Source of the DNA: Acarospora socialis
Taxonomy: Eukaryota > Ascomycota > Lecanoromycetes > Acarosporales > Acarosporaceae
NCBI GenBank assembly: GCA_025617375.2
Contig: JAMYGW020000012.1
Location: 434,001 to 498,000 of the forward strand
Length of the DNA: 64,000 nt
Direction of reading: 5' to 3'
Shown in pieces: positions 3,373 to 64,000 of this stretch. Below the pieces are notes generated by a model. It had not been told where the DNA came from and made no database searches. It saw nothing but the letters and a program-made list of their open reading frames with translations. Numbering within the stretch: position 1 is the stretch's first letter; each line of letters opens with the position of its first letter. A program made the translations under genes and the position numbers.

Positions 3373-5910
3373 ATGGTCAAGCTTTCACTCGCTATCCTGG
3401 CCCTAGCCAGCTCGGCGGCCGCCAATATGGTCGACCGTAGGTGGTACTACAACACAACTAGTTCGCAGTATTCATCAAGGTAGATATGAAGGGCCCTTCA
3501 ATTGCGCCGGAATCTGCTGACGATATAGCTCTGCACCGGCTCTGCCCGGAACAGTCACGTACACGACATATACAACGGTCACTACTTGCCCCGTCACCAG
3601 CACCTACAGCAGCTCGACCTCTACCTGGGTCTCGACGACGTTGACCACCTCAACCATCACGGTCACCAGTTGCATGTACGGGTGCCCACCGGCCACTTAC
3701 TCAACGCCTACTTCCACCGAGTCATCAGAGACGACATCTACGCCTTCTGCGCCTGCGTCACCCCCCATTACGTCTTCAACGAGCTCGGAGTCGTCGTCTG
3801 TATCCACATCTGAAATCACAACTACCAAGACCAAGACCAAGACCAAGACCACGACTGAGACCGAGACCGAGAAGACAACCTCGACGCCCTCTGCGCCGGC
3901 GTCACCGCCGATTACGTCTTCAGAAAGCTCGGAATCATCATCCACGCCTACATCTAAAACCACAACCACGGAAACTGAGACTACGACTGAGACTGAGACC
4001 GAGAAGACAACCTCCACCCCTTCTGCGCCAGCATCACCGCCAATAACATCTTCTACAAGCTCTGAGTCATCATCTGTGCCCACATCGGAAATCACAACTA
4101 CGAAGACAAAGACCAAGACCCAGACCGAGACTGAGACCGAACAGACAACCTCCACACCGACTCAGCCGGCATCACCGCAGACAACCTCTTCAACAAGCTC
4201 TGAGTCGTCATCTGTGCCTACATCTCAAACCGAAACTACAAAGACTGAGACTGAGACGCAAAAGGTACATCAAGGAACTTGTCAACTATCGGCGATGTAG
4301 TGCTAACCGGTCGTCAGACAACTGCAACAATTGAGACCACCGAGACTGAAAAGGTATCTTACATATATGATAATAAATCATCTGGCTTGCGCTAATTCGA
4401 TACTCAGACAACCACTACTGAATATACTACTATCTACACAACCGTGTGCCCCGTCACTGTGACTCAAACTCTCAATAAGACAACTGTTATTTTAACGTCC
4501 AGCACCACATCCACTGCGACGGAAACACATACGTCAACCTATGTTGGTATGTAGCAGTTGCACACAAACCCAGCTGACATTATGAAGTTGACATTGCCTT
4601 GCCTTAGTGTCTGCTACCAAAACAAAAACCCAGACGATTGAAACCGCATCCACACAAGAAAGCACTATCTACGTAACCGTGTCTACGACTTACGTAACTA
4701 CTACTTGCCCTGGTAGGCGTTGCGCACTCAATTTGTTTATCTTCGCTGACTCGGACTTTAAGTTACCTATGTCACTATCAGCTCGGCGTCGTCTGTAGTC
4801 ACTAGCCCGGTGACCATGACCCAGACCCTGACTATTACTACCGTCACCACATGCCCCACAACCACCATAATTACTACAACACCTCAATCTTCTCCGAGCA
4901 GTCCACCGACTACAGTTACCTCAACCGTTGTACCAGTTATACCTATCTCACCAGTACCAGTTTCGTCCGAAACATCAGCAACAAGTGTAGCAAGTGTACT
5001 TCCAGCTCATGCTTTGCAGCCTACCACTGGGTTACTTCCACCAACTTCTCAGGAGACTATGGCATCGGTCCCACCAACATCTGGGGCACCACCCACCGTT
5101 ATCCCGGTTACTGTATTGTCTGAGGGCCAACCGCAAGCCCCGGGCCCAAGTGTGCCAGCAGCTCCACCGGCCTCAAGCCCTCCTGCGGCACCAGCACCAG
5201 CACCGCCAGCTTCAAGCCCTCCCGCAGCACCGGCGCCAGCTCCACCAGCTTCAAGCCCTCCTGCGGCACCAGCACCAGCACCGCCAGCTTCAAGCCCTCC
5301 CGCAGCACCCGCTCCGCCAGCTTTACCAGCTTCAAGCCCTCCTGCGGCACCAGCACCCGCCCCGCCAGCTCCACCAGCTTCGAGCCCTCCCGCAGCACCG
5401 GCGCCAGCTCCACCAGCTTCAAGCCCTCCCGCAGCACCAGCCCCAGCGCCGCCAGTGTCGAGCTCTCCCGCAGCACCGGCACCCGCTCCGCCAGCTTCAA
5501 GCCCTCCTGCGGCACCAGCTCCGGCTCCGCCAGCGTCTAGCCCTCCTGCAGCACCGGCTCCAGCTCCACCAGCGTCTAGCCCACCTGCTCCCCAACCAGC
5601 TCCAAGCGCTCCGGCAGCTCCAGCTCCCAGTGTTCCCGCCAGCAGTTCGCCAGCAGCTCCAGCATCCCCGGTGTCGACCGTAACCGCCATCTCGCAGTTG
5701 ACCGAGGGTCAACCACAGGCCCCAGCCACCTCCGCGCCCTCCGGTTCAGCGGCGGCAAGCCCAAGCGTGCCTGCTGCGCCTACGCCTTCGGGCTCAGTGG
5801 CCTCAAGCCCAAGTGGTCCAGCTGCACCCGTTTTTACTGGCGCTGCGAACCTCAATAAACCTGCCGTTGCCGCTTTGGCTGGAGTAATGGCTCTGATGGC
5901 GTTGGCCTAA
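3373..5910 (+). CDS. Secreted Thr/Ser/Pro-rich mucin-like GPI-anchored cell wall protein
   Basis: Six exons (3373-3479, 3529-4264, 4318-4353, 4408-4546, 4608-4712, 4763-5910) give a 756-residue protein with all phases consistent. Residues 1-18 (MVKLSLAILALASSAAA) are a signal peptide. Then come YTTYTTVTTCP-type blocks seen in fungal wall proteins. Next are about four copies of a Ser/Thr/Glu module rich in KTKTKT/TETETEK, and a long Ala-Pro-Ser tract of about 12 PASSPPAAPAPAP-like units. The C-terminal end (small residues before NLNKPAV, then AALAGVMALMALA with no basic tail) fits a GPI-attachment signal. It should be heavily O-glycosylated and sit at the membrane or wall. Introns 2 to 5 all fall within Thr-rich repeats, and exon 3 is only 36 bases. 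Function beyond wall or surface structure is unknown. Confidence 0.85.
3700..4260 (+). repeat. Coding tandem repeat, Ser/Thr/Glu module
   Basis: About four diverged copies of a module of roughly 45 codons lie within exon 2 of the wall protein. Each has an APASPPITSS-like start, SSESSS in the middle and a Lys/Thr or Glu/Thr alternation at the end. The alternations KTKTKT and TETETE come from short CCAAGA and CTGAGA repeats, so copy number is likely to vary. Confidence 0.8.
5155..5600 (+). repeat. Coding minisatellite, about 39-base unit (Ala-Pro-Ser)
   Basis: About 11 to 12 near-identical units encode the 13-residue motif PASSPPAAPAPAP. Some units are shortened or carry an extra Ala-Pro step. 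Neighbouring units differ mainly by silent or C/T changes, which points to recent unequal exchange or slippage. Opposite-strand frames through this tract are long only because of the repeat. Confidence 0.9.
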
Positions 5911-48698: not shown

Positions 48699-51600
48699 TC
48701 AAAGCGCCACTGAAGCTAATATTGCGTACCGCCATTTGCAAGTGTTCTCAAAAGGGTAAAGGTTGTGGAACCCATAGACAGAAGGAAGCTTTTGTGTAAG
48801 CGCCTTTTGCCATGCGTCTTTTAACGACGGTACGAGACAGAGCAAGGGATGTCGTGATTCAAAGCTATCTGGAGCCTCGCTTTGCGCGACTGGCGCTCCA
48901 TCGAGTCGTCTTTGTTTCGTAGTACTGAGGAAGTTGAGCTTACCTTTGAACATCTCGCTATCTGGTCCAGTTTTCATGAAGTAGGTGCTGACGTTTCCGT
49001 CAACATTGATAACGATCTTGGACGGGGTTGAGAAGCCGGCTTGACCGTATGGCTCGATCGTTGCTGTACTCCGATTGGCCGAAAGGATTGCAATGACAGC
49101 AGGATCCAGGTGTGAGCCGGGATGAGAGGTCTTGGGTATATTGTCAGTATCAGGAAAAACTTCTTCACCGTAGATTTCGGTCTCCTTGTCTCTCAGAATC
49201 TTCGCTGTCGAATGATGAAAATTCTCCTCTGCTAGCGAATGAGGTTTTCGGCCATCATTGTCCTCGGCCCTGGGATCAGCTCCTTTATCGAGCAACATTT
49301 GCACCACTGCTTTGGAGCCGTTGCTAGCTGCTTGGTGTAGTGGTGTTTGCCCTGTCCGGTCTTTCAGGTTAGGATCTGCGTCTTCTTCTAAGAGCAAACT
49401 CATAACAGCTATATGCCCACGCCAAGCAGCCTGGTGCAAGGCTGTTTCACCTTCATCATCAGTCTCATTCGGATCTGCGCCCTCTTGGAGGAGGCGTCCG
49501 ACCACCGCGGTATGACCGTTCCAGGTGGCTTGATGAAGTGCCGTCCATCCGTTGTCCGCCCTCGAGTTTATGTCTGCCCCCTTTTTGAGCACATATTTGG
49601 TGGTCTTTTCATGACCATTCCAGGCCGCATGGTGCAGTACACTCCAGCTCTCGTTATCCTTGGCTTTCAAGTCTCCGCCATGCTCCAGAAGAAGCTTGAC
49701 AATCTGTGCGTGACCATTCGCTGCCGCATGATGTAAAGGTGTACAGCCTTCCATGTCTCTGACTTTGACACTGGCAGCCTTGGAAAGTAGAAGGCGCGTG
49801 ACTTCCACGTTTCCAATGGTGGCTGCTCGCATCAAAGCTGTCCATTTGGTGCTGTCTGTGGCCTCGATACCAGCATTGTTATCTAAAAGTATCCGAGTAA
49901 CCCCCGTGTGTCCATTGAATGCTGCACGGTGCAGTGGGGTCCATCCAATCTTGTCTTGTGACCTGCAATTAGCGCCATTCTGCAACAGCTGCTCAACTAT
50001 TGATGCATGTCCATTGTTGGCAGCCCAGTAGAGTGCTGTCACCCCCTCGTTATTCTGCGCCGCAACATCAGATCCTCGATCCAAGAGCAACTGTACCGCT
50101 AGGTCGTGGCCATTCTTGGCCGCCCATATCAACGGAGTGTTACCTCTAGAATCGCAGGCTCGGATGTCAGATGAGTGACCCGAATCCAAGAGCTTTCGCA
50201 GCAGCCATGGCAAGCCCGCATACGCAGCAAGATGCATGGGTGTGAACGCTTCGGGGTATGTCTCATGTTCAGTATGGGTTTTCGCCCAGTATGCCGAGAA
50301 CCAAATTTGACGTTCCTTTGAAGCGGGGGTGAAGAATTGAGCGTTCACGTCAAATTGGTCAGCAATATCATCGGAGGCATCCCTTGCATGGTCCGGCCAG
50401 AAAAGCAGAGGGTATTCAAGGCAAGCCACATCACTTTTCTCGGTCTTTAAATTGTCGCTGGATCGATTCACCCTTGATGGTGATAAACCTCGAGAATTGA
50501 GAGCACACCGCAACTCCCTACCAATGTAATGAAAACAGTGAACCGCTACATTACGATGCTCAGGCCGGAGATCCTTGGAGACAATGCTTTCTTGTCCATT
50601 CTCCAGAAGATGGGTCCTCGCCGACAGATGGATGAATTGAGCTTGCCTAAGGTATGTTTTCGCAGACAAATGGACGAAGTGGGCCTGCCGATGCCGAATA
50701 GTCACCATGGACCCACACTGCTCAACGTATTCGCCAAGCACGTGGACATTGTGGTGGTATTGCTCAGGTAGGCCAGCGGCAACAGCCAACTCAGGCAAGG
50801 TGAGAGGTCGTATTGCGACCACCATGGATTGCAAGATGCTTTTGATATACAAAGTTGACCTCTCATCCCTGGAAGTCAGGACTTGGTCCATTATCCGAGA
50901 GTATAGGGGTGTTATGCCGGCAGGCAGTTGTAAGAGCACTTCTTCTGTATTCACTGATAAGACAGATGGCTTCGAGAGCTCGCGGCAAGCTAAAGCAACC
51001 CATAGGAAGGTTCCTTCGGCTTTTTGGTGAAGGTTCTCTTCTACCAAGCCTCTTAGTGGCTCGTCATAATGCTTGACTCTTGTCAATTGCTTCACTTTGA
51101 CGTCGATAAATTTGAGAACGGCATCATCGACATGAGAAGCGTTTTCCTCTAAGCTAATCTCCAACGACCCTGTAAGCGGCTGCCTAATCCTCAGCTCATT
51201 TCGACTCGTTAGAAGCCATTTCATGTGGCAATCCATGTCCTTCTGGGCGTTTTGGCCAATGTCGTCCTCTTCAGTGTCAATGTAGGGTGCAAGAAGCACA
51301 AGCAAGGTCTCCAACGAATCTATGTCGCATTCGTCAAGCGCGTCGACTATGATGTAAATTTCCTGGAGTTCAGAATTCCTGATGATGGTGTGGAAGATTC
51401 TCCACAAGGTTTGTAGAGAGTTTCGAGAAGCAAATAGTTGATCCTGTTGTTTCTCGTACTCATTGTTCAAGAAGATAGCGAGGTCTGGATGTTGACAGAG
51501 GACTTGGTAGATGATGCCCCGTAGAATGAGCGAAGCAGTCTTTCGCCTGTCATCTTGGTTGTCGCAGAAGAAATACACAAGGGCCTTCTTTGAAGCCTTT

Positions 51601-53072
51601 TCGCCGAGCTGAAGTTTCCTCGTAAACTCTTCGATTAGTGCTATCGCGAGCATCGTCTTGCCTTTGCCAGGGTCGCCATGAAGCCAAAGCACTCGAGAAC
51701 GATTCTCGTTCAGCCATTTCAAGTAGGTAGCGTCGTTCAATATCCAGGAGTCGGTAGTCTCCAATAACTTATCCTTCTTGTTTGCAATCATCTGCATGTC
51801 GTCGGCAGGATCCGTGACGAAGAGTGCTTGGATACTCGCACGATCTCGATCTTCAAACGTAACTGGTGCTCGCATCGTTACGCCCGAAAGAGAGCCCATG
51901 TAGCTGCCAGCGTCATATTCGCCTGGACTGGGTTGTAGGAATGGTAATGCTAGTAGTGAACTGTTAGTGCCTCTTCGAGACGCAACTGTGTATGACTTAC
52001 ATATTCGGCGACCACTCACTCGACCTGGGGCACTCTCGACAAGTCTGACAATCTCTTCACATACAAGGCGGTAATTACTGTCTCCAGGGTCTGAAAACCT
52101 GTTCATCCGAAAGTGTTCAGAGGAAAGCCCAAGCTTGGGATAGCCATCGAGGCAGCCAGACTGCTCATCAACGACAGTGTCCTGATGCCCCATTTTCAGT
52201 ACGGGGACTCATCGGACAGGGGATGCCTTACCTTGACACTCGGCATTAGCATCTTCGAACCTTTGAACTTGAGTACTTTTGCCACATCCGACTTGTGCTG
52301 TTCAAAGAAACAAAACAAGGGAATTGACAGCGTATTGACAGTCCTGGTAAAGTCATGTAACAGATCCGCCAGCATTTCGGAGTCTTTGTCTACGGCCTTG
52401 AGCAGGCTGCTATGCTCTCCAAGCGAGACAGCTGACGCGATGGAAGCTATCACGGACGCCTTTGATTGGGAGTTGGATCCGCGATGCGGTGTTCCCAAGA
52501 AGACTACTCCGGCTACTGATCTGATAATTGATGGGTAGTCTTCTTCGTGAAGCTTTGCTGACACGAGCGCCTGTTGGTTTTAGCATTCTGGACATAGTCA
52601 TCACCGTTGTGGATGCCCAACCTTTTCAATGACAATTCCCCCGAAGCAATGTCCGACGAAGACGATCGGCCGCAACGGACATTCCTGGCAGACCCTTAGC
52701 TCCGATGGACCCAGAGGCCGAGGCCAAACCATGCCCTATACCTTACGTGACTCCATCAAACCACGCAGCAGTTGATCCGCAACGAGCGACAGCCTCTGTT
52801 GTATTGCATCTTTTCCCAGCCACTGCGACTCGTACCCGAAACGAAGTATCCTGGAGTTCGGGATGGCTCGCGGAAGCATGTGTCCATCCTTTAACCAATT
52901 CAGATCGCCGAAAGTCCATGTTCGATCAGGATGTGCGCCAATTCCATGAACAGCCACGACGCTATATTTCTCAGCTGCGTCTTTCCGTAACTGCTGTTTG
53001 GGTTTGCATACTCCACAAGGGGCCCCGGAGGGCGTTGATCAGAAGGTGGGGTATAGAGCGTTTTGATGCCAT
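48699..53072 (-). CDS. NLR/STAND protein: hydrolase-like (SesB-type) - NACHT - ankyrin repeats
   Basis: Six exons on the minus strand (53072-53012, 52974-52742, 52684-52622, 52570-52232, 52181-52001, 51949-48699) give about 1375 residues. An alpha/beta-hydrolase-like domain comes first: AVHGIGAHPDRTWTF, then VFVGHCFGGIVIEK with Cys111 where Ser is usual, and GVVFLGTPHRGS. Then DDMQMIANKKDKLLETTDSW leads into a NACHT-type NTPase with Walker A GDPGKGKT (about 384) and Walker B YIIVDALDECD. From about residue 876 there are about 11 ankyrin repeats (TPLHHAAANGHAQIVKLLLE and similar). This architecture is that of fungal NLR-like receptors tied to non-self recognition and programmed cell death. The start and the first, 37-base intron are uncertain. 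The intron at 51950-52000 is 51 bases and open in frame, so retention would add 17 residues. The gene lies 3.4 kb from the AT-rich block. Confidence 0.85.
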
Positions 53073-55383: not shown

Positions 55384-56427
55384 ATGCTCTGTCCGTTTCC
55401 CGAATCGACTCAATTAAATAACCAGCTCAAGACTTACAGCGCGGAAACATCGAATTCGTACAGTCTTGTACGGACAGATGACCCAGGATGCGATTGCCTA
55501 CCAGGGCAACCACGAATGCGCCTGCGATGCAGCACGCTCTTCCAACACCTCGAAAAAGAATTCCTCACCCCCGACCTGGATGCACTTGCGCCATATCTGT
55601 GGCTGATCGCAACACAATCCAGCTCGCACATTGGTTCCCTGCACGAGCAGAATCTAAAAGGCCGAGAGATCGTTATCACTGAGAACCCAGAACTGCATCT
55701 CGTCTGGGTCGACGGCCGCATCTTCATCAAACCCATCCCGCGATACATGTTATCATATGCCTTTTGGACTACGCATCTTACCCCAAGAGCTCCCAGCTGC
55801 ACACCCGAGACCCATCATGAACAGCCTTCAAACTCTCTCATCAGGGCCGCGCTTGGTTACATGCGAACATATTACCATCTCATCCGACATGAGTCCGACC
55901 TCCACATCGCCAAGGAACGTCGACTTCTCCCGGTTGATAGCAACGATATCACCATAGAAAGCTTTTACGCCTTCATTGCAAACTTCGCTGAAATTCAAGA
56001 TGAAGAAGTCTCCCCTCGCTACTCCTCTTCCGGCACTCTCAGACTCTCGCGATTAAATATGTGGGCGAAATTATTCCTGCGTCGGTTCCAGTTTTTCCAG
56101 ATACACCGTCAATATGGTGAATACTTTGCACGATTCTATGCGCCTATTCTGTTTGTGTTCGGGGTTTTTACAGTTGCGTTGAGTGCTATGCAAGTGGGCC
56201 TTCAAGCCAGCAATAATGATACTGATAAGGATCGATGGGGTGCTCTGCAGTCAGTGAGTCTGTGGTTCGCTGTGGCAACGCTGTTGTGTCTTTGTACTAT
56301 TGGGCTTGTAATTCTGTTGCTCCTTCTTTTCATGCTGTTACGGGAATTGGTATTTGCAGGGAAGGATCTTGTACGGCGAAATAGGAAGGCTACGAAAGAC
56401 CTAAGTCTTGGGACGGCATTGATGTGA
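55384..56427 (+). CDS. Two-TM fungal protein (DUF6601-like), unknown function
   Basis: This single-exon gene encodes 347 residues. Conserved blocks are DALAPYLWLIATQSSSHIG, LKGREIVITENPELHLVW and RIFIKPIPRYMLSYAFW, then AALGYMRTYYHLIRHESDLH and FYAPILFVFGVFTVALSAMQ. The last is the first of two C-terminal membrane spans; the second is SLWFAVATLLCLCTIGLVIL and continues into a Leu-rich stretch. A basic tail follows (RELVFAGKDLVRRNRKATK). This layout is common in Pezizomycotina proteins of unknown role that I associate with DUF6601. It is the last intact gene before the AT-rich block, whose first terminus begins 23 bases after its stop. Confidence 0.8.
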   Translation: MLCPFPESTQLNNQLKTYSAETSNSYSLVRTDDPGCDCLPGQPRMRLRCSTLFQHLEKEFLTPDLDALAPYLWLIATQSSSHIGSLHEQNLKGREIVITENPELHLVWVDGRIFIKPIPRYMLSYAFWTTHLTPRAPSCTPETHHEQPSNSLIRAALGYMRTYYHLIRHESDLHIAKERRLLPVDSNDITIESFYAFIANFAEIQDEEVSPRYSSSGTLRLSRLNMWAKLFLRRFQFFQIHRQYGEYFARFYAPILFVFGVFTVALSAMQVGLQASNNDTDKDRWGALQSVSLWFAVATLLCLCTIGLVILLLLLFMLLRELVFAGKDLVRRNRKATKDLSLGTALM

Positions 56428-57190
56428 TCTGAATACTTATGGTATGATACAGTGCCGGAAAAAACTCTGGTCCGTTCAGAACAGTTGTGAAAACCACTTT
56501 TTTTTGAAAGCTCAAATTTCTCAAAACAAACAAATACTGCAACTGCTTCACAAACACAATATATTATTACAGACTGAGTATATAGATTGATGTAAGATAT
56601 ATAGATCTTTCATACTTCAAAATTTGAAGTGTGTAATCAAACAAATGCATGTGTAGTCACTGAAAAGGTGTGTTTTTGAGTGTTTTTGTCATGAAAAACA
56701 GCAATTTTACACTGTATTCAGTGTATAACTCAACAACAACAATTTATTACAGTAATCTGAGACTATAGTATTAAAATATATATAAATCTGTTGAAATTGA
56801 AATGTTTCTATTGCTTGATATTAGATGTCTTAATTATCTAGAAGACTAGAATACACAAAGTGAATAACTTATGATGTGTGATGACTAAGTAATCACATGA
56901 TTAATGTGCTAGAACTGAAAACCTGACTCAGCATATAACTAAGCAAGCTATAACACGAATCATATTTCAACACTTTTTCTCAGTTCTAGTCAATCTAGAC
57001 ATTCTAAACAATCTAGATATTTATTCATTAGTCAGTATAGATTCTCTGATTTTATCAAGAGATAGACTTGACAGTGAGATGAGAAAGTGAGAATGAGACA
57101 AAAAGAAAAAAAAATGTAGTGAAGACACAAAAAATAAAGTGACAATGAGATTAGAACTCAAACACACAACAAAAAGAGTGAATAATTGAG
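56428..57190. other. Start of AT-rich block, Tc1/mariner-like terminus and debris
   Basis: At 56448-56449 a TA is followed by CAGTGCCGGAAAAAACTCTG, a terminus typical of Tc1/mariner elements. Base composition changes within about 50 bases from gene-like to strongly AT-rich with almost no CpG. No matching far terminus was found in the window and no coding sequence is recognisable. The element is probably truncated or interrupted by the elements that follow. Confidence 0.55.
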
Positions 57191-58440
57191 AAGAACTGAC
57201 TTAACAATCTTGTTAAATCAGTTATTCTGATCATCATTAATGAGTGCTTTATCAATTTAATTTATAAGAACATTGACATGAGTTCTAGCTGACTAAGAAA
57301 GTGATGAAACTTAATAATGAATAAAGATTTAATGAGTTTATTAACTGCTTGTTCAGATGTAGAAACAAACTTAAGATTAATAAGACTGCAATTAACAATT
57401 TTATGAACAAAATGATATTGAATATTGATGTGCTTGATGCAGACATAAAACTCAGAATTTCAAACTAAATTCATAGTATCATGATTGTCAACACAAATGA
57501 TGATAAAATCACTGCTATTAAAAAAGTTAATTCTTGTAAGAAAGCAGTGAAGTCATATAACTTTCTTTATTGCTTGTGTTTCAGTCATGTATTCAGACTT
57601 AATGAATAATAAAATAACAGTTTGTTAACATTTTGAACATTAACTAATAAAATCTTCAAAAAAAAAGAAAAAAATAAGCATCAGTGAACTTTCTAGTATT
57701 GTAACAGTTATTTTAATTAATATTGATATAATCAATAAGATCAGTGTCAGTGATGTTATAGATGATATTTAAGTCTGTAGTGTCAGCAAGATATTTGAAG
57801 ATTTGCTTGACAGTATTGTAGTGTGAGACATTTAAATTTTAATTGAATTGACTGACAGTAAAGATAGTGAAAATGATGTCAGAACACATCTGTAACATAA
57901 TGTACATTAGTGATTTTACTGGTTTTTGATAGCATCAAATAGTGATGATATCAGTCTGAGTGATGAACTTCTTTATAAATACTACATCAAAGTTCATAAA
58001 TATGTTGACAGAAACTATCTACAACTGTTGAAATGTCTTAAGAATCTTATTAATGTAAACTGTTTAAATAAAACAAATAGTATGTTCAGAACAGTTATAC
58101 TCAATCTTTATATTTAAATAATAAAACATAGAGCTGAGATCTGACATCTTGAAGATGTTAATAAGATGTACTTTAATGTTTTGAATAACTGATTTATTCT
58201 TTTCTATAAGAAGAAAATTGTTAATATAAATAATAATAATAATATCATCATTGACTCAAAAGAAGACACTATGATCAGAATTGAGATGATGAAAACTGAG
58301 TGAGATAAGATAATTACATAAAGTTTCATATCAAAGATGTAATGCTTGCTTTAAATCATATAAAATCTTATTAAGCAAGATATGTTACAACCATACTGCA
58401 GTTAATATAAGAGCTGCATGTGAACCACACAGTTCTGAAA
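57190..58440 (-). mobile_element. Decayed Ty1/copia LTR-retrotransposon fragment
   Basis: Read on the minus strand, the region shows the end of a copia-type pol. Reverse-transcriptase similarity is near 58100-58230, and the RNase H end with its terminal conserved His-containing block is near 57240-57520. Gag and integrase are absent and no flanking LTRs were delimited. It is a broken fossil with many breaks. It abuts the gypsy element on the right, and either may have inserted into or beside the other. Age is hard to judge because the block has a heavy transition load. Confidence 0.65.
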
Positions 58441-58479
58441 TCAAATGATGAGCTAAACATTGAGTTGATGCTCAGATTG

Positions 58480-61400
58480 TTGTGTGTAACACTGAGAGTG
58501 TTGAGTTAACTCTTTGAGAATCAAGCTCATTCTATATAGTAGAATTGTTTCTTTTATGAAAATGATTGTGTTCAAATTCTCATCTAGCAATAAAGTTACT
58601 ATCTACTGATTTACTCAACTGTATCATACAAATCATTATATTAACAAGCACAAATCTCTAGTTCTAGCATACTCAAGACATCTCAGATTTAGAACATAAC
58701 ACTTTGAACATTCTTACAATATAATATGACAATGTCTAATACACAGAAGAACATCTTCACTGTATTATTTGCAGCAAGTCAGATCAGAGTTACTCAACAA
58801 ATAAGTATAACTATTAATACATCTAAGATCAAGACATCTGACAACTTCATCAAAGAGTGTGAAAAGCTTCAATCATTTCTAGCTCAACTGAACTTGTACA
58901 TCAACTTCAATATACAAAAGTTTCTCAGCAACACAGACAAGATTCTGTTTGCAGCATTCTATCTTAGAAACACAGTATTTGATTGAATTGACTCATTCAT
59001 GAGAAAATTCATTGACAAGATGTTCAAGAAAAAGCAAGAAGACATTAAGTCTATGTTTAATAACTACTCTAAGTTTAAAGAAGAGATAAGAAAAATCTTT
59101 GAAATTATTGATGAGAAAAAAGCAGCAGAACAATGCATCTGTATCTTGTGACAGAATGAATTGATGACACAATATATAGTGAAGTTTCAATGAGCAGTGA
59201 CACTGACAGAATGAGAAGATGATGCTTTGAACTTTGCATTCTATTGAGAACTCAAAGAATTCATTAAAGATGAGATTGTCAGATCTGATAGACTCAATGA
59301 TTTGTAAGACATCATTGATTTTGTGATTAGTATTGATAGTCATGCATAAGAAAGACAACAAGAAAGAAAGAGATTCTAACTCAAAGAATATATATCTGAA
59401 TATATCTGAAGAGATATGTATAGAAGATTGCTGCAGACACAATACTTAGATTCAATGAATCTTGATATGATTAATAGAAAAAGACTCTCAACATAAAAAC
59501 TCAAAGAAGCATCACAGAAAAAGAATGATAAATTCATGAAGAGAAAGTTCATGAATAAGATTGAAATTCACAAGTGCTACAATTGCAATAGAATTGAACA
59601 CATCACAAGAAATTGCTAAAAATCTCAAAGAAAAAGAAAAGAAGCTGTGATTGCAACTAAGAAGATAGTGCACAACAATTTTAGCTGAACAGCTTATTAC
59701 AATGACATGTGTTGAGTACACATGAACATCAAGAATGAAATCAGACATTATTCAAAGAAATCACATCAGAAATAAGAAGCTTACAATATCACAGAACAAT
59801 CTAAATCAAACAATACTGTAAAGAAAAAATTGCATGTTCTTAATGTTGACATCAAAGAAACAGATGATTAAGAAACTCAGAAGATTAATTATTTCAAGAT
59901 TGATATTAAATTAAAAACACTCAAAGAAGATTTTATCTTTATCTGATTCAACTTTGACAGCAATGAAGACAGTGAAGACAGAAATTGAAGAGAGTGAAAA
60001 ACAATATGCAAGAATGCAAGAGTAGAAGAATGAGTCAAAGTTATAGTGATTAAACAAGAACTTAAATCTTCACAGAATCAAGATACAGCAATAGTTCAAG
60101 AGCAATTTAAACTCTTCAAGATACAAGCAAGAGTAAAAGAACTTCAACATAAGATCAAACAAGAGAAAGCTCTATAGGCTGAGAGAAATTAAAGTCAACA
60201 AATTGAGAAATTATTGAAGAATGTTCAAGCAATGAAGTCTCATGATCAAATCATGCTCAAAGAGCTGATATAAAGAATTAAAAGTCATAAGATAAAAATC
60301 TGACTATCAGAAAAATACATCACTGTTAATTATAAATAATGAATCTGAACAGAAGAGTACATCTCATTAGAATTTCTGTAAAGAGTGAGAACTTTGAAGA
60401 CACAATTGCAGATGAAATACAATCAGTATGAATTATGACTATATTTCAAAAGACAAGTCAAAAAAGACAGCACAGAGTATGCACATCTACTAGACAGTCA
60501 AGAGTCAACATAATTCAAAGAGCTATGAAGAAGAGCAGAAGAAGCAGTGAAATCAAAAAACTGCAAGCTTTCTCAACAAGACTAAAGAACAAAAAGCTTT
60601 TAATGTCTCAAGAATACAGAAATAATAAGATAATAATTGAGATAAACATTGAACAGAATGATTGTCTGTTGAGAACAATGAGAGCTTTAGTTAATTCAGA
60701 AATAACAAATAACTATATCTCAGAAGCAACAGTATAAAGTTTGAAACTTTGACTGATACAAGTACTTTATTCAGCACAAGTACACATAATTAACAGAAGT
60801 TATGAACACATTGATAAGAAGATACATGTGCAAGCAAGTATCAATGAAAGATGTCAGAAAATGATGTTAAATGTCATGAAGTTGATGAAGTATGACATCA
60901 TACTAAATATGTCATACTTGAGAAACTGAAACTCAAAAATCAACTGAATAAGCAAAGAAGTATGCAAACTGAGACATACATATGAGATCTCAAAGCAATC
61001 AAAGATGTGCTTGTCAGAACACAAGTCATGAAATCATGAGATACTGCTATTGAAGAAAGAACAATTTAAGTGAATATCATTATACTCAATGAACAAAGAT
61101 CAACTCAAGAAAGTATGAGCTTACCTTGATGAAAATCTCAAGAGAGAATTCATAAAATCATTAAAGTCATCAGCAGAATACTCAATTCTATTTATATCAA
61201 AGAAGAATGACAAGAAACAATTATGTATTGATTATAGACAGCTTAACAACATAACTCAACAAAATAGTTACTTCTTATCATTGATAGAAGAACTGCAAGA
61301 TCAGTTAAACAAGACTAAGTGATTCATCAGCTTAGATTTAAAGAACATTTACTACTGAGTAAGAATGAAGAAGAGTGAAGAATGAAAAACAGTATTTTAA

Positions 61401-63700
61401 ACAAGATACAGACATTACAAATACATTATCATGTCATTTAAGCTCAAAAATGTCTCAGTCATCTTTCAGAGATTGATCAATGACATGTTATGAGAATATC
61501 TCAATAATTTTGTGATTACATATCTCAATGATATTCTAATATACTCAGAAAGTCTTGAGAAGTATTGCAAACATGTGCACAAGATATTGAACAAGTTCAA
61601 GAAAAGAGTCTTGTACATGAAAGAATTCAAAAGCAAGTTCAAGACTCAGAAAGTCAGGTTTTTAGACTATGTGATTTGACTGAGATACATTGAAAAAGAT
61701 TCAAAAAAAACTGCAGCAGTCAAACACTAATTAACATCAATCAGAATCAGAAAAGTACAGATCTTTCTAAGACTAATGAATTACTATTAAAAGTTCATAT
61801 CAAACTATTTGAGAATAGCAGAATCTCTCACACAGTTGATGCAGAAGAATGAGAGATGACATTGAGATGAGAAACAAGAACAAGCATTCAATGCATTGAA
61901 GAAAAGTCTCAGCAAAATGACTCACCTCATTATATCAAATGCAACAAGCAAAAAAGTATTGAAAATCAACACATCAGACTTTGCAGTCAACACATGTCTA
62001 TATCAGATTGAAGATGAACAACAGAAACTCATAGCATTTCAATTTAGAAAACTGTCAGAACTCAAGAAAAGATATGAGATTCATAACAAGAAACTTCTTG
62101 CAATAGTGAAAGCACTGCAAGAATGAAGATCTTATTTTGTAAAAACAGAAAAGTCAATTCAGATCTATACAGATCATAAGAATTTAAGAAACTTTGCAAC
62201 AACTAAGCAGCTGAACTGCAGACAGATTCACTGAGCTGAATTATTAGCAGACTTTGAATTTCAGATTCATTACAAGAAGAATAATGAAAATGATAAAGTA
62301 AATGTCTTGAGCAGACAATCTGATCATGAGAAAGTGAAATGAATTCACACTGAAATTCTAAGCAAAGATGATAAGAAAATTCTCACAAAAGAATTATCAA
62401 CAATATACAAGATGAAGAATGCTTTCTTGTCAGATAAAGAACTCATTAAAATGTGTCATCACAGTAAAATTAAAGAACATCTGAGAGTCAAACACACAGA
62501 AGATCTTGTGCAAAGAAGACACAACATTGACAATTTTAGAAATCAAATCATCAGAATAATTGCTATGTGCAACTTATGCTGAAGAAACAAGATTAGTTAA
62601 GATAAGCAGTATAATGAGATAACACAACTGAATGCATCAGATGTATCATGAAAATCAGTTATTATGAACTTCATTATAAAGCTATCATCATCAAAGAATC
62701 TGACATGAGAAGTGAGATTTGACAGCATACTAATTATAGTGAATAGATTAACTAAGTACATCATGTTCATTTCATTCAAAGAGATCATAACAGCATCAGT
62801 ATTGATTTACATCATATTGCAAAAATTAATTAACAATCACAGACTATCAAAAGAGTTTATCATCAACAGAGACAAACTGTTCACAAGCAAGTTTTGAAAG
62901 ACATTCACAGCAGAACTTGAGATAAAGCATAAGATGTTGACAGCATATCATTTACAGATAAACAGACAAAGCAAATGAATGAATCAAACAGTGAAAACAT
63001 ACTTGAAACACTATGTCAACAAAAATCAGAACAACTGAATACAACTGTTATTTATGACACAGTTCATGTACAACAACACAAGAAACAAAATCATGAAAAA
63101 AACATCTTTCTATGTGAATTATGATTACAACTCAGAGATATGATGAGATTCATGAGAACACAAATCACAAAGTCAACAAGCAATACTAGATATCAATGAA
63201 CTAAAGAAACTGCACTGAGACTTAACAGTACAAATTAAACAACAAACAGAATGAACAACAACAGCAGAATCATTTGAAGAGAGAGAAAAGATATACTTAA
63301 GAATGAACAACATATGCATTAAGAAAAAAAGCAAGAAGTTAGACAACAAGAGCATCAGATCATTCAAAATTAAATGAAATATCAAGAAACTAAGTTATGA
63401 GCTTGACTTACTCAAGAAAATGAGAATACACTCTGTATTTCACACATTCATGCTTCAACATTGCAATCAGTTCATATCACTTCAGATCATCAAAATATCT
63501 GTTGAACTCAATGAAGAATATAAGATCAAGAACATTTTAGAGAGAAGAATGATTAGAGAAAAAGCTCACTATTTTGTTAAATGAAAAGAATACAATATCT
63601 CAGAAAATACATGAGAATTCAAGAGAAACCTCAAGAACTGCATGAGAACACTTCAACATTTTAAGAAGAAAATAAAGAATTAGACTGTCAAAAGTCAGTC
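58480..63700 (+). mobile_element. Decayed Ty3/gypsy LTR-retrotransposon (chromovirus type)
   Basis: Parts lie in the expected plus-strand order. A gag region spans about 58726-59700, with a CCHC zinc-knuckle near 59570-59615. Protease-like sequence follows around 60600-60900. Reverse transcriptase is at about 61100-61720, RNase H at about 61880-62340 and integrase at about 62400-63400, with a chromodomain-like end near 63490-63660. The order RT-RNase H-integrase plus the chromodomain mark the chromovirus lineage. It is a clearly broken fossil with dozens of breaks. LTRs were not delimited, and the right one may lie beyond the window. The left limit is approximate. Confidence 0.8.
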
Positions 63701-64000
63701 AGCATTGCATTAAACAGCTGAGAAAGAGTTTCAGACTGAGAATTTTTTTCATCATCATCATTATTGTCATTCATCTCTTTCAGCAAACAGAGAATCTTCT
63801 GTTTTGTGTGATCATGAATTTGATGCAAAGTTTTTTATAATTGAAAAAGTTTGACAAACAGACAGATCTGCTCTTTCTCTGTTTTTAGAATTTTGAACTT
63901 TAGTTGATTACAAACACAATTCAGTGATTTTTATGTCAGATCAACACAGAAACAACCACAACAAGTACACTCAACACACTTAATGTGTATATCAGAATTC
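63701..64000. other. AT-rich tail of the element block
   Basis: This AT-rich, CpG-free DNA continues past the chromodomain-like end. It may be the 3' untranslated part or the LTR of the gypsy element. No repeat partner is visible inside the window. Confidence 0.4.

Follow-up and report, generated by a model that had tools for sequence, protein, structure and literature searches.

Within a 64,000-base stretch of the Acarospora socialis genome (31.1 Mb in 38 contigs), here called the window (C12:434,001-498,000), a gene-dense region of about 50% guanine plus cytosine (GC) gives way at 56.4 kb to an AT-rich block of nested repeats with 26 to 30% GC, in which cytosines followed by G or C (CpG and CpC) have almost disappeared through C-to-T change. 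This hypermutated block, delimited by counts of CG, CC, and GG relative to shuffles and by binned composition and given no strand, occupies positions 56,495 to 64,000 and, in window numbering, reaches at least 71,000, past the window end. A 347-codon open frame from the frame list (55,384 to 56,427, plus strand) adjoins the block and has normal composition, with bins remaining normal to about 56,494.

In a count of all 16 dinucleotides, observed/expected (O/E) ratios in the gene-bearing part (1 to 56,440) were 0.88 for CpG, 0.99 for CpC, 0.94 for GpG, 1.11 for CpA, and 0.73 for TpA. All seven 1-kb bins from 57,001 to 64,000 had a CpG ratio of 0.00, with CpC at 0.00 to 0.09, GpG at 0.00 to 0.04, CpA enriched to 1.44 to 1.71, and TpA at 0.48 to 0.79. 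From 56,495 to 64,000, CG, CC, and GG occurred 1, 7, and 4 times, compared to means of 160, 150, and 172 (standard deviation [sd] of 10 to 11) in 500 shuffles. On both strands of positions 57,001 to 64,000, there were 2,048 cytosines with both neighbors present, of which none preceded G and nine preceded C; cytosine remains in the block almost only before A or T. An earlier note on this DNA had described this pattern by eye, including the near absence of CpG, the rarity of CC and GG, the abundance of CA and TG, a C that, on either strand, seems to survive just where A or T follows, and a gene-bearing part free of the signature, and the counts agree with it on each point. The note had held that CpA depletion with TpA excess, or the same CC/GG deficit in unique AT-rich DNA of the genome, would speak against its view. 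CpA was not depleted and TpA was not in excess, and the four AT-rich 500-base bins of the gene part (GC < 0.44), a small set that may include repeated DNA, had CpC ratios of 0.71 to 1.04 and CpG ratios of 0.41 to 0.90. Standard indices of repeat-induced point mutation (RIP) were 0.67 (TpA/ApT) and 1.58 (substrate index) for the block; because the limits quoted in PMC3828140 are 0.89 and 1.03, the block scores as RIP-free.

The edge of the block is as sharp as the note had claimed, and its position moves from near 56.44 kb to 56,495, because the last gene-side cluster of CG, CC, and GG stops at 56,494. This places the edge about 47 bases within a dispersed short repeat that forms the left end of the block (56,448 to 56,789, no strand assigned, placed from copy matches and target positions). 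Nine copies of this repeat were present among the matches listed, at 92 to 96% identity, extending from window positions 56,441-56,448 to 56,789. Its outer 47 bases (56,448 to 56,494) retain CG, CC, and GG, and the sequence inside them is saturated. Other copies of the short repeat (L079 to L081, about 690 to 700 bases) retain 10 to 12 CG and 9 to 17 CC, counting both strands. A second repeat family, recognized by long matches of 76 to 84% identity in many places, follows at 56,790 to 58,382 (no strand assigned), and its copies L069 to L075 are also saturated, with CpG at 0 and CpC near 0 across the matched stretch. The rest of the block in the window is a Ty3/gypsy-type long terminal repeat (LTR) retrotransposon of 6,143 bases overall on the plus strand, which a gapless alignment to a relative on contig C14 traces from 58,384 to the window end at 64,000 and on to its 3' end, which lies beyond the window at 64,526. 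Self-comparison placed the 5' LTR at 58,382 to 58,701 (plus strand, 320 bases at 84%) and the 3' LTR outside the window at 64,207 to 64,526; the pair differs at 50 positions, all C/T or G/A.

The relative on C14 (C14:275,916-282,058) has normal composition, and a comparison of its own LTRs shows 3 mismatches in 319 positions, each at a CpG. Four of its natural frames, scanned separately, matched gag, zinc knuckle, reverse transcriptase (RVT_1), RNase H, and integrase families. The end of a frame in this element, at L064:3759-4139 (minus strand), has an apparent likeness, judged by eye, to a chromodomain. The gapless alignment of the window and C14 copies spans 6,143 columns and shows 1,203 differences, with 39% of cytosines changed. 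Read from C14 to the window, 506 differences are C-to-T and 663 are G-to-A (1,169 of the C-to-T type), 33 are reverse transitions, and 1 is a transversion. At 27 of the reverse transitions the two copies were struck on opposite strands of a CpG site, at 3 they were struck at different bases of a CpC site, and 3 are unexplained; because 30 of the 33 fit hits in C14, the C14 copy must itself be lightly mutated. Change lacking a C-to-T account in either copy is therefore confined to one transversion and three transitions per 6,143 columns, and the comparison otherwise shows the C:G-to-T:A transitions that are a hallmark of RIP. Target use was strongly skewed by the following base. All 297 CpG sites of C14 were lost in the window copy (lower limit, 98.8%), as were 747 of 760 CpC sites counted on both strands (13 remain), compared to C-to-T change at 130 of 851 CpA and 96 of 796 CpT sites. 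The note's proposal that C-to-T change falls preferentially on C before G or C is thus supported by a direct comparison of copies, and the CpA preference of canonical RIP is absent.

These two copies also record how the hits accumulated. The 297 CpG sites became 146 CA, 120 TG, and 31 TA, so that 10.4% reached TpA (confidence interval, 7 to 14%), near the 15% rate of change at CpA. Because independent hits to saturation would give mostly TpA, the first hit at a CpG leaves its partner as a weak CpA target. The 90 isolated CCC runs that precede A or T yielded TTC in 42 cases and CTC in 38; once the middle C is hit, the first C stands next to a T and is therefore protected. Both outcomes indicate that hits were single and that the context was re-read after each one, which could have happened within one generation or over many, since a T:G mismatch could also have blocked a second hit. 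Complete loss of 297 sites requires about four or more hits per CpG. In the C14 copy, the 27 CpG and 3 CpC hits that are visible, corrected for detectability in the window copy, give a rough estimate of 17% of CpG and 2% of CpC sites hit.

Six gypsy copies, taken from 40 matches listed and aligned over about 4 kb, had CpG ratios of 0.00 and CpC ratios of 0.00 to 0.06, and the more diverged among them carried additional transversions and more change at CpA and CpT. The 3' base decides the target, and the effect of the 5' neighbor is weak. Strand-processive editing was considered for these copies and rejected, as runs of CpG hits were near random (the lowest, in L006, was 61 versus 73.8 [sd 6.0], a z score of about −2.1).

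Seventeen of 20 systematic 3-kb samples of the genome were normal (CpG, 0.72 to 1.03; CpC, 0.85 to 1.07), and three contained AT-rich DNA with CpG near 0 (L043, L048, and half of L049). Because L048, which overlaps a match to a long interspersed nuclear element (LINE, a non-LTR element), retains CpC at 0.66, CpC saturation is not universal in AT-rich repeat DNA. Stops in 107 LTR-type reverse transcriptase relics, copied by hand from a match listing that scored 150 of 435 candidates, were 387 TGA, 56 TAA, and 19 TAG; CpA change would favor TAA and TAG. Beside the mutated repeats L069, L070, L072, and L073, composition was normal or nearer normal within one or two 500-base bins, and the ribosomal DNA locus (L066) had normal composition. 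At the loci examined, the change is limited to repeats and spares unique flanks, as seen from the edge at 56,495 inside a repeat, the normal gene flank, and the switches in composition beside other copies.

The LINE family, which encodes endonuclease, reverse transcriptase, and RNase H families and is present in many nearly identical copies, provided a view of fresh changes. Variation was scored in 12 of 29 aligned copies, those at least 99.5% identical to L015 and free of transversions, with the other 17 excluded. All 56 variable gap-free columns were transitions, 46 at CpC, 4 at CpG, 3 at CpT, 2 at CpA, and 1 with a gap behind it. Expressed per target site in L015, the hit rates were 46/190 for CpC (24%), 4/12 for CpG (33%), 3/493 for CpT (0.6%), and 2/642 for CpA (0.3%), and CpC differed from CpA plus CpT (5/1,135) with a Fisher P value of 1e-35. 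Because copies have some changes in common, the columns are only partly independent; of the 46 CpC changes, 30 are each private to one copy. The mutation process is still active or was so very recently.

Codon use in the LINE bears the mark of the same targets. Its copies have CpG ratios near 0.05 and CpC ratios near 0.8, and a CpG-only process, at one point inferred from this CpC retention, was dropped when the codon analysis accounted for much of the CpC. The open LINE frame (L015:22-3753; 1,244 codons) contains 5 CpG, encodes arginine almost only as AGA, and has 190 CC or GG, 123 of which are unavoidable given its proline, glycine, and tryptophan residues. The 67 avoidable CC or GG compare to 268 (sd 14) expected from host codon use and 137 (sd 11) expected from synonyms matched for third-position GC, and the 5 CpG, always avoidable, compare to 181 (sd 10) and 104 (sd 8), respectively. 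The codon null was built from seven host frames and is imperfect, as one of these frames alone falls short (248 versus 290 [sd 15], with CpG at 179 versus 221 [sd 11]), and two gypsy frames of C14 are slightly short as well (82 versus 91 and 45 versus 54, with CpG at 53 versus 70 and 36 versus 45); these shortfalls are several times smaller than those of the LINE. AGA or AGG encodes 40 of 44 arginines in the LINE, whereas the DIM-2 frame of the host uses these codons for 16 of 83. The 56 variable sites cause 45 amino acid changes, 7 tryptophan-to-stop changes, and 4 silent changes. The LINE frame has lost almost every CpG and the majority of its avoidable CC and GG, and it is now struck mostly where the protein cannot yield.

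Read directly, this clearing of targets is the product of mutation plus selection, and it may be what enables the LINE to survive. A broader scenario, which we hold tentatively as possible rather than probable, is an arms race fought via codon choice, in which the repeat mutator of this lineage switched to C before G or C and the LINE counter-adapted its codons (nearly no CpG, few CpC or GpG beyond those forced) and persisted as numerous near-identical copies, in one cluster per large contig, with other elements mutated to saturation. Among the matches listed, LINE-type reverse transcriptases are grouped, on each of 14 contigs, into a single cluster spanning at most about 150 kb, at (in Mb) C1 2.65-2.80, C2 1.47-1.50, C3 0.57-0.59, C4 1.99-2.00, C5 1.54-1.60, C6 0.65-0.69, C7 1.32-1.36, C8 0.21-0.24, C9 1.25-1.26, C10 0.19-0.27, C11 0.93, C12 0.15, C14 0.01-0.09, and C16 0.10. 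Such clustering might resemble that of centromeric elements. Location alone does not seem protective, because the saturated relic L072, with normal-GC DNA adjoining, sits within the C10 LINE cluster.

A search of the genome for cytosine-C5-methyltransferase domains gave four matches at three loci. One (L009) is of the DIM-2 type, with its best PDB match to 9bap (E = 1e-191), which we take to be Neurospora DIM-2. Another (L011) is of the DNMT5 type, with its best match to 7r76 (E = 2e-67), deposited as Rad8 and presumably Cryptococcus DNMT5. In the remaining locus (L010/L012), the methyltransferase domain lies in two pieces separated by an apparent intron, a BAH match is absent, and there is almost no tail. 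On this domain layout and a putative RID motif, we label the gene RID/Masc1 type. RID and DmtA proteins of several ascomycetes have been described with a similar layout (PMC2432034). The genome also contains five matches to the OTT_1508 deaminase-fold family (PF14441), all above the cutoff; they include L076 (C12:542 kb, about 44 kb beyond the window end), L077, and L078.

The observations are probably best explained by RIP-like, repeat-directed C-to-T mutagenesis with the preference CpG > CpC >> CpA and CpT. The change is nearly purely C-to-T, affects both strands, and lies in repeats; the edge of the block in the window falls within the end of a repeat, and the newest copies show the same bias. 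Under this explanation, an active mutator would rewrite transposon DNA as RIP does, reading the 3' neighbor differently, with CpG as the first target, CpC the second, and CpA and CpT far behind. Confinement to repeats suggests that repetition triggers it. The agent could be a cytosine-C5-methyltransferase-type protein, most likely of the RID/Masc1 type, with or without DIM-2, acting either directly or via 5-methylcytosine plus enzymatic deamination, and mutation would proceed until CpG is gone and CpC is almost gone. Several points weigh against this explanation. Canonical RIP prefers CpA, and the RID label of L010/L012 rests on domain layout plus a putative motif. That CpG is struck before CpC is a rough estimate from one copy. 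Textbook RIP would hit long duplicates hard, and the 12 near-identical, several-kilobase LINE copies (at least 99.5%) are barely touched, with the C14 gypsy copy lightly hit; such copies may have arrived recently, may be poorly targeted, or may have arisen in an asexual phase.

The earlier note had offered two processes, C-to-T change with a different target preference and methyl-C deamination with extra context. A rival of the second kind is passive decay, in which repeats methylated at CpG and CpC (de novo by DIM-2, maintained by DNMT5) lose 5-methylcytosine through slow spontaneous deamination. Methyltransferase genes are present, CpG was seemingly struck first, and repeats are the methylated part in published fungal methylomes (PMC7862722). 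Timing makes this unlikely, since about four or more hits per CpG stand against about four unexplained changes per 6,143 columns, an excess of about 7,000-fold. The usual effect of 5-methylcytosine on mutation is tens-fold, far below such an excess, and background change did not rise with CpG loss, given one transversion and three unexplained transitions at full loss. The RIP-like alternative of the note fits better, as CpG is saturated with nearly all other change absent. Overlaying two processes, with CpG methylation and decay in all repeats plus a separate CpC-directed mutator, would suit the C14 copy, in which CpG took most of the hits (27 visible on opposite strands at CpG versus 3 at CpC). 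We give this little credence, because six aligned copies that differ in age have lost CpG and CpC jointly, the youngest LINE copies vary at both, and plain passive CpG loss fails the same timing argument.

Replacing the methyltransferase-type protein with a dedicated DNA cytosine deaminase, such as one of the OTT_1508 fold, would draw on the five PF14441 matches, all above the cutoff. Nothing ties these genes to repeats, and the known APOBEC/AID-type DNA deaminases respond to the base on the 5' side, whose effect is weak here. Because the 3' base decides the target, a methyltransferase-type enzyme is favored, and editing by a deaminase appears improbable. Base calling might account for the small number of CpC differences between young LINE copies, and an artifact of assembly, base calling, or foreign DNA is otherwise hardly credible in the face of a gapless relation between the window and C14 copies with 39% of cytosines changed and a single transversion, the TGA-rich stops of 107 relics, the added transversions in older copies, and the normal neighboring DNA. 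On the same evidence, a sequencing artifact was rejected for the saturated copies. A foreign AT-rich element was likewise rejected, on the gapless C-to-T relation to C14, as was canonical CpA-directed RIP, since CpA is retained and TpA is low.

RIP-like mutagenesis at CpG and CpC shares with canonical RIP of Neurospora crassa, Leptosphaeria maculans, and Stagonospora nodorum the C:G-to-T:A change on both strands, the confinement to repeats, and the RID- and DIM-2-type genes. It differs in that the published preference is CpA to TpA (PMC2621366 and PMC12543289), whereas CpA is mostly kept here and CpG and CpC are exhausted; repeats of S. nodorum are also depleted in CpC and CpG, but CpA is dominant there. 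A 2025 survey of 1,239 fungi describes a CpA preference as shared by RIP-like defenses (PMC12543289). CpG-biased RIP-like mutation, with CpG a main target as in this genome, has already been published for Aspergillus nidulans MATE, Tuber, Microbotryum, and Rhizoctonia AG8 (PMC2621366, PMC4352252, and PMC4014442), although the available portions of these reports do not describe CpC as a co-dominant, nearly exhausted repeat target. In Rhizoctonia solani AG8, CpC changes are denser than CpG changes (every 214 versus 370 bp), but they are genome-wide, neither repeat directed nor saturated. Uncinocarpus reesii, in which CA and TG rise, may be a related case. Methylation induced premeiotically (MIP; Ascobolus immersus, Masc1) is also repeat directed and involves the RID/Masc1 family, but it methylates without mutating (PMC13297926), while here the bases themselves are changed. 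In the parts of the open-licence literature available, no description was found of CpC as a co-dominant target of RIP in repeats.

The 3'-base preference of a RIP-like process can therefore fall on CpG and CpC rather than CpA, with near-total efficiency. Similar cases may have been missed, because standard CpA-based RIP indices score such DNA as RIP-free. Copy pairs such as those of C14 and the window record both the order of hits and their one-at-a-time nature, the RID-type protein of this fungus may be a natural specificity variant, and the LINE offers a case in which to study whether a mutator shapes the evolution of transposon codon use.

Two further frames lie in the gene-dense part of the window. 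A frame at 4,810 to 5,910 contains long Ala-Pro-Ser repeats and likely encodes a cell wall or secreted repeat protein, and a 1,164-codon frame at 48,699 to 52,193 (minus strand) resembles, by eye, a fungal self/non-self type of nucleotide-binding protein with ankyrin repeats.

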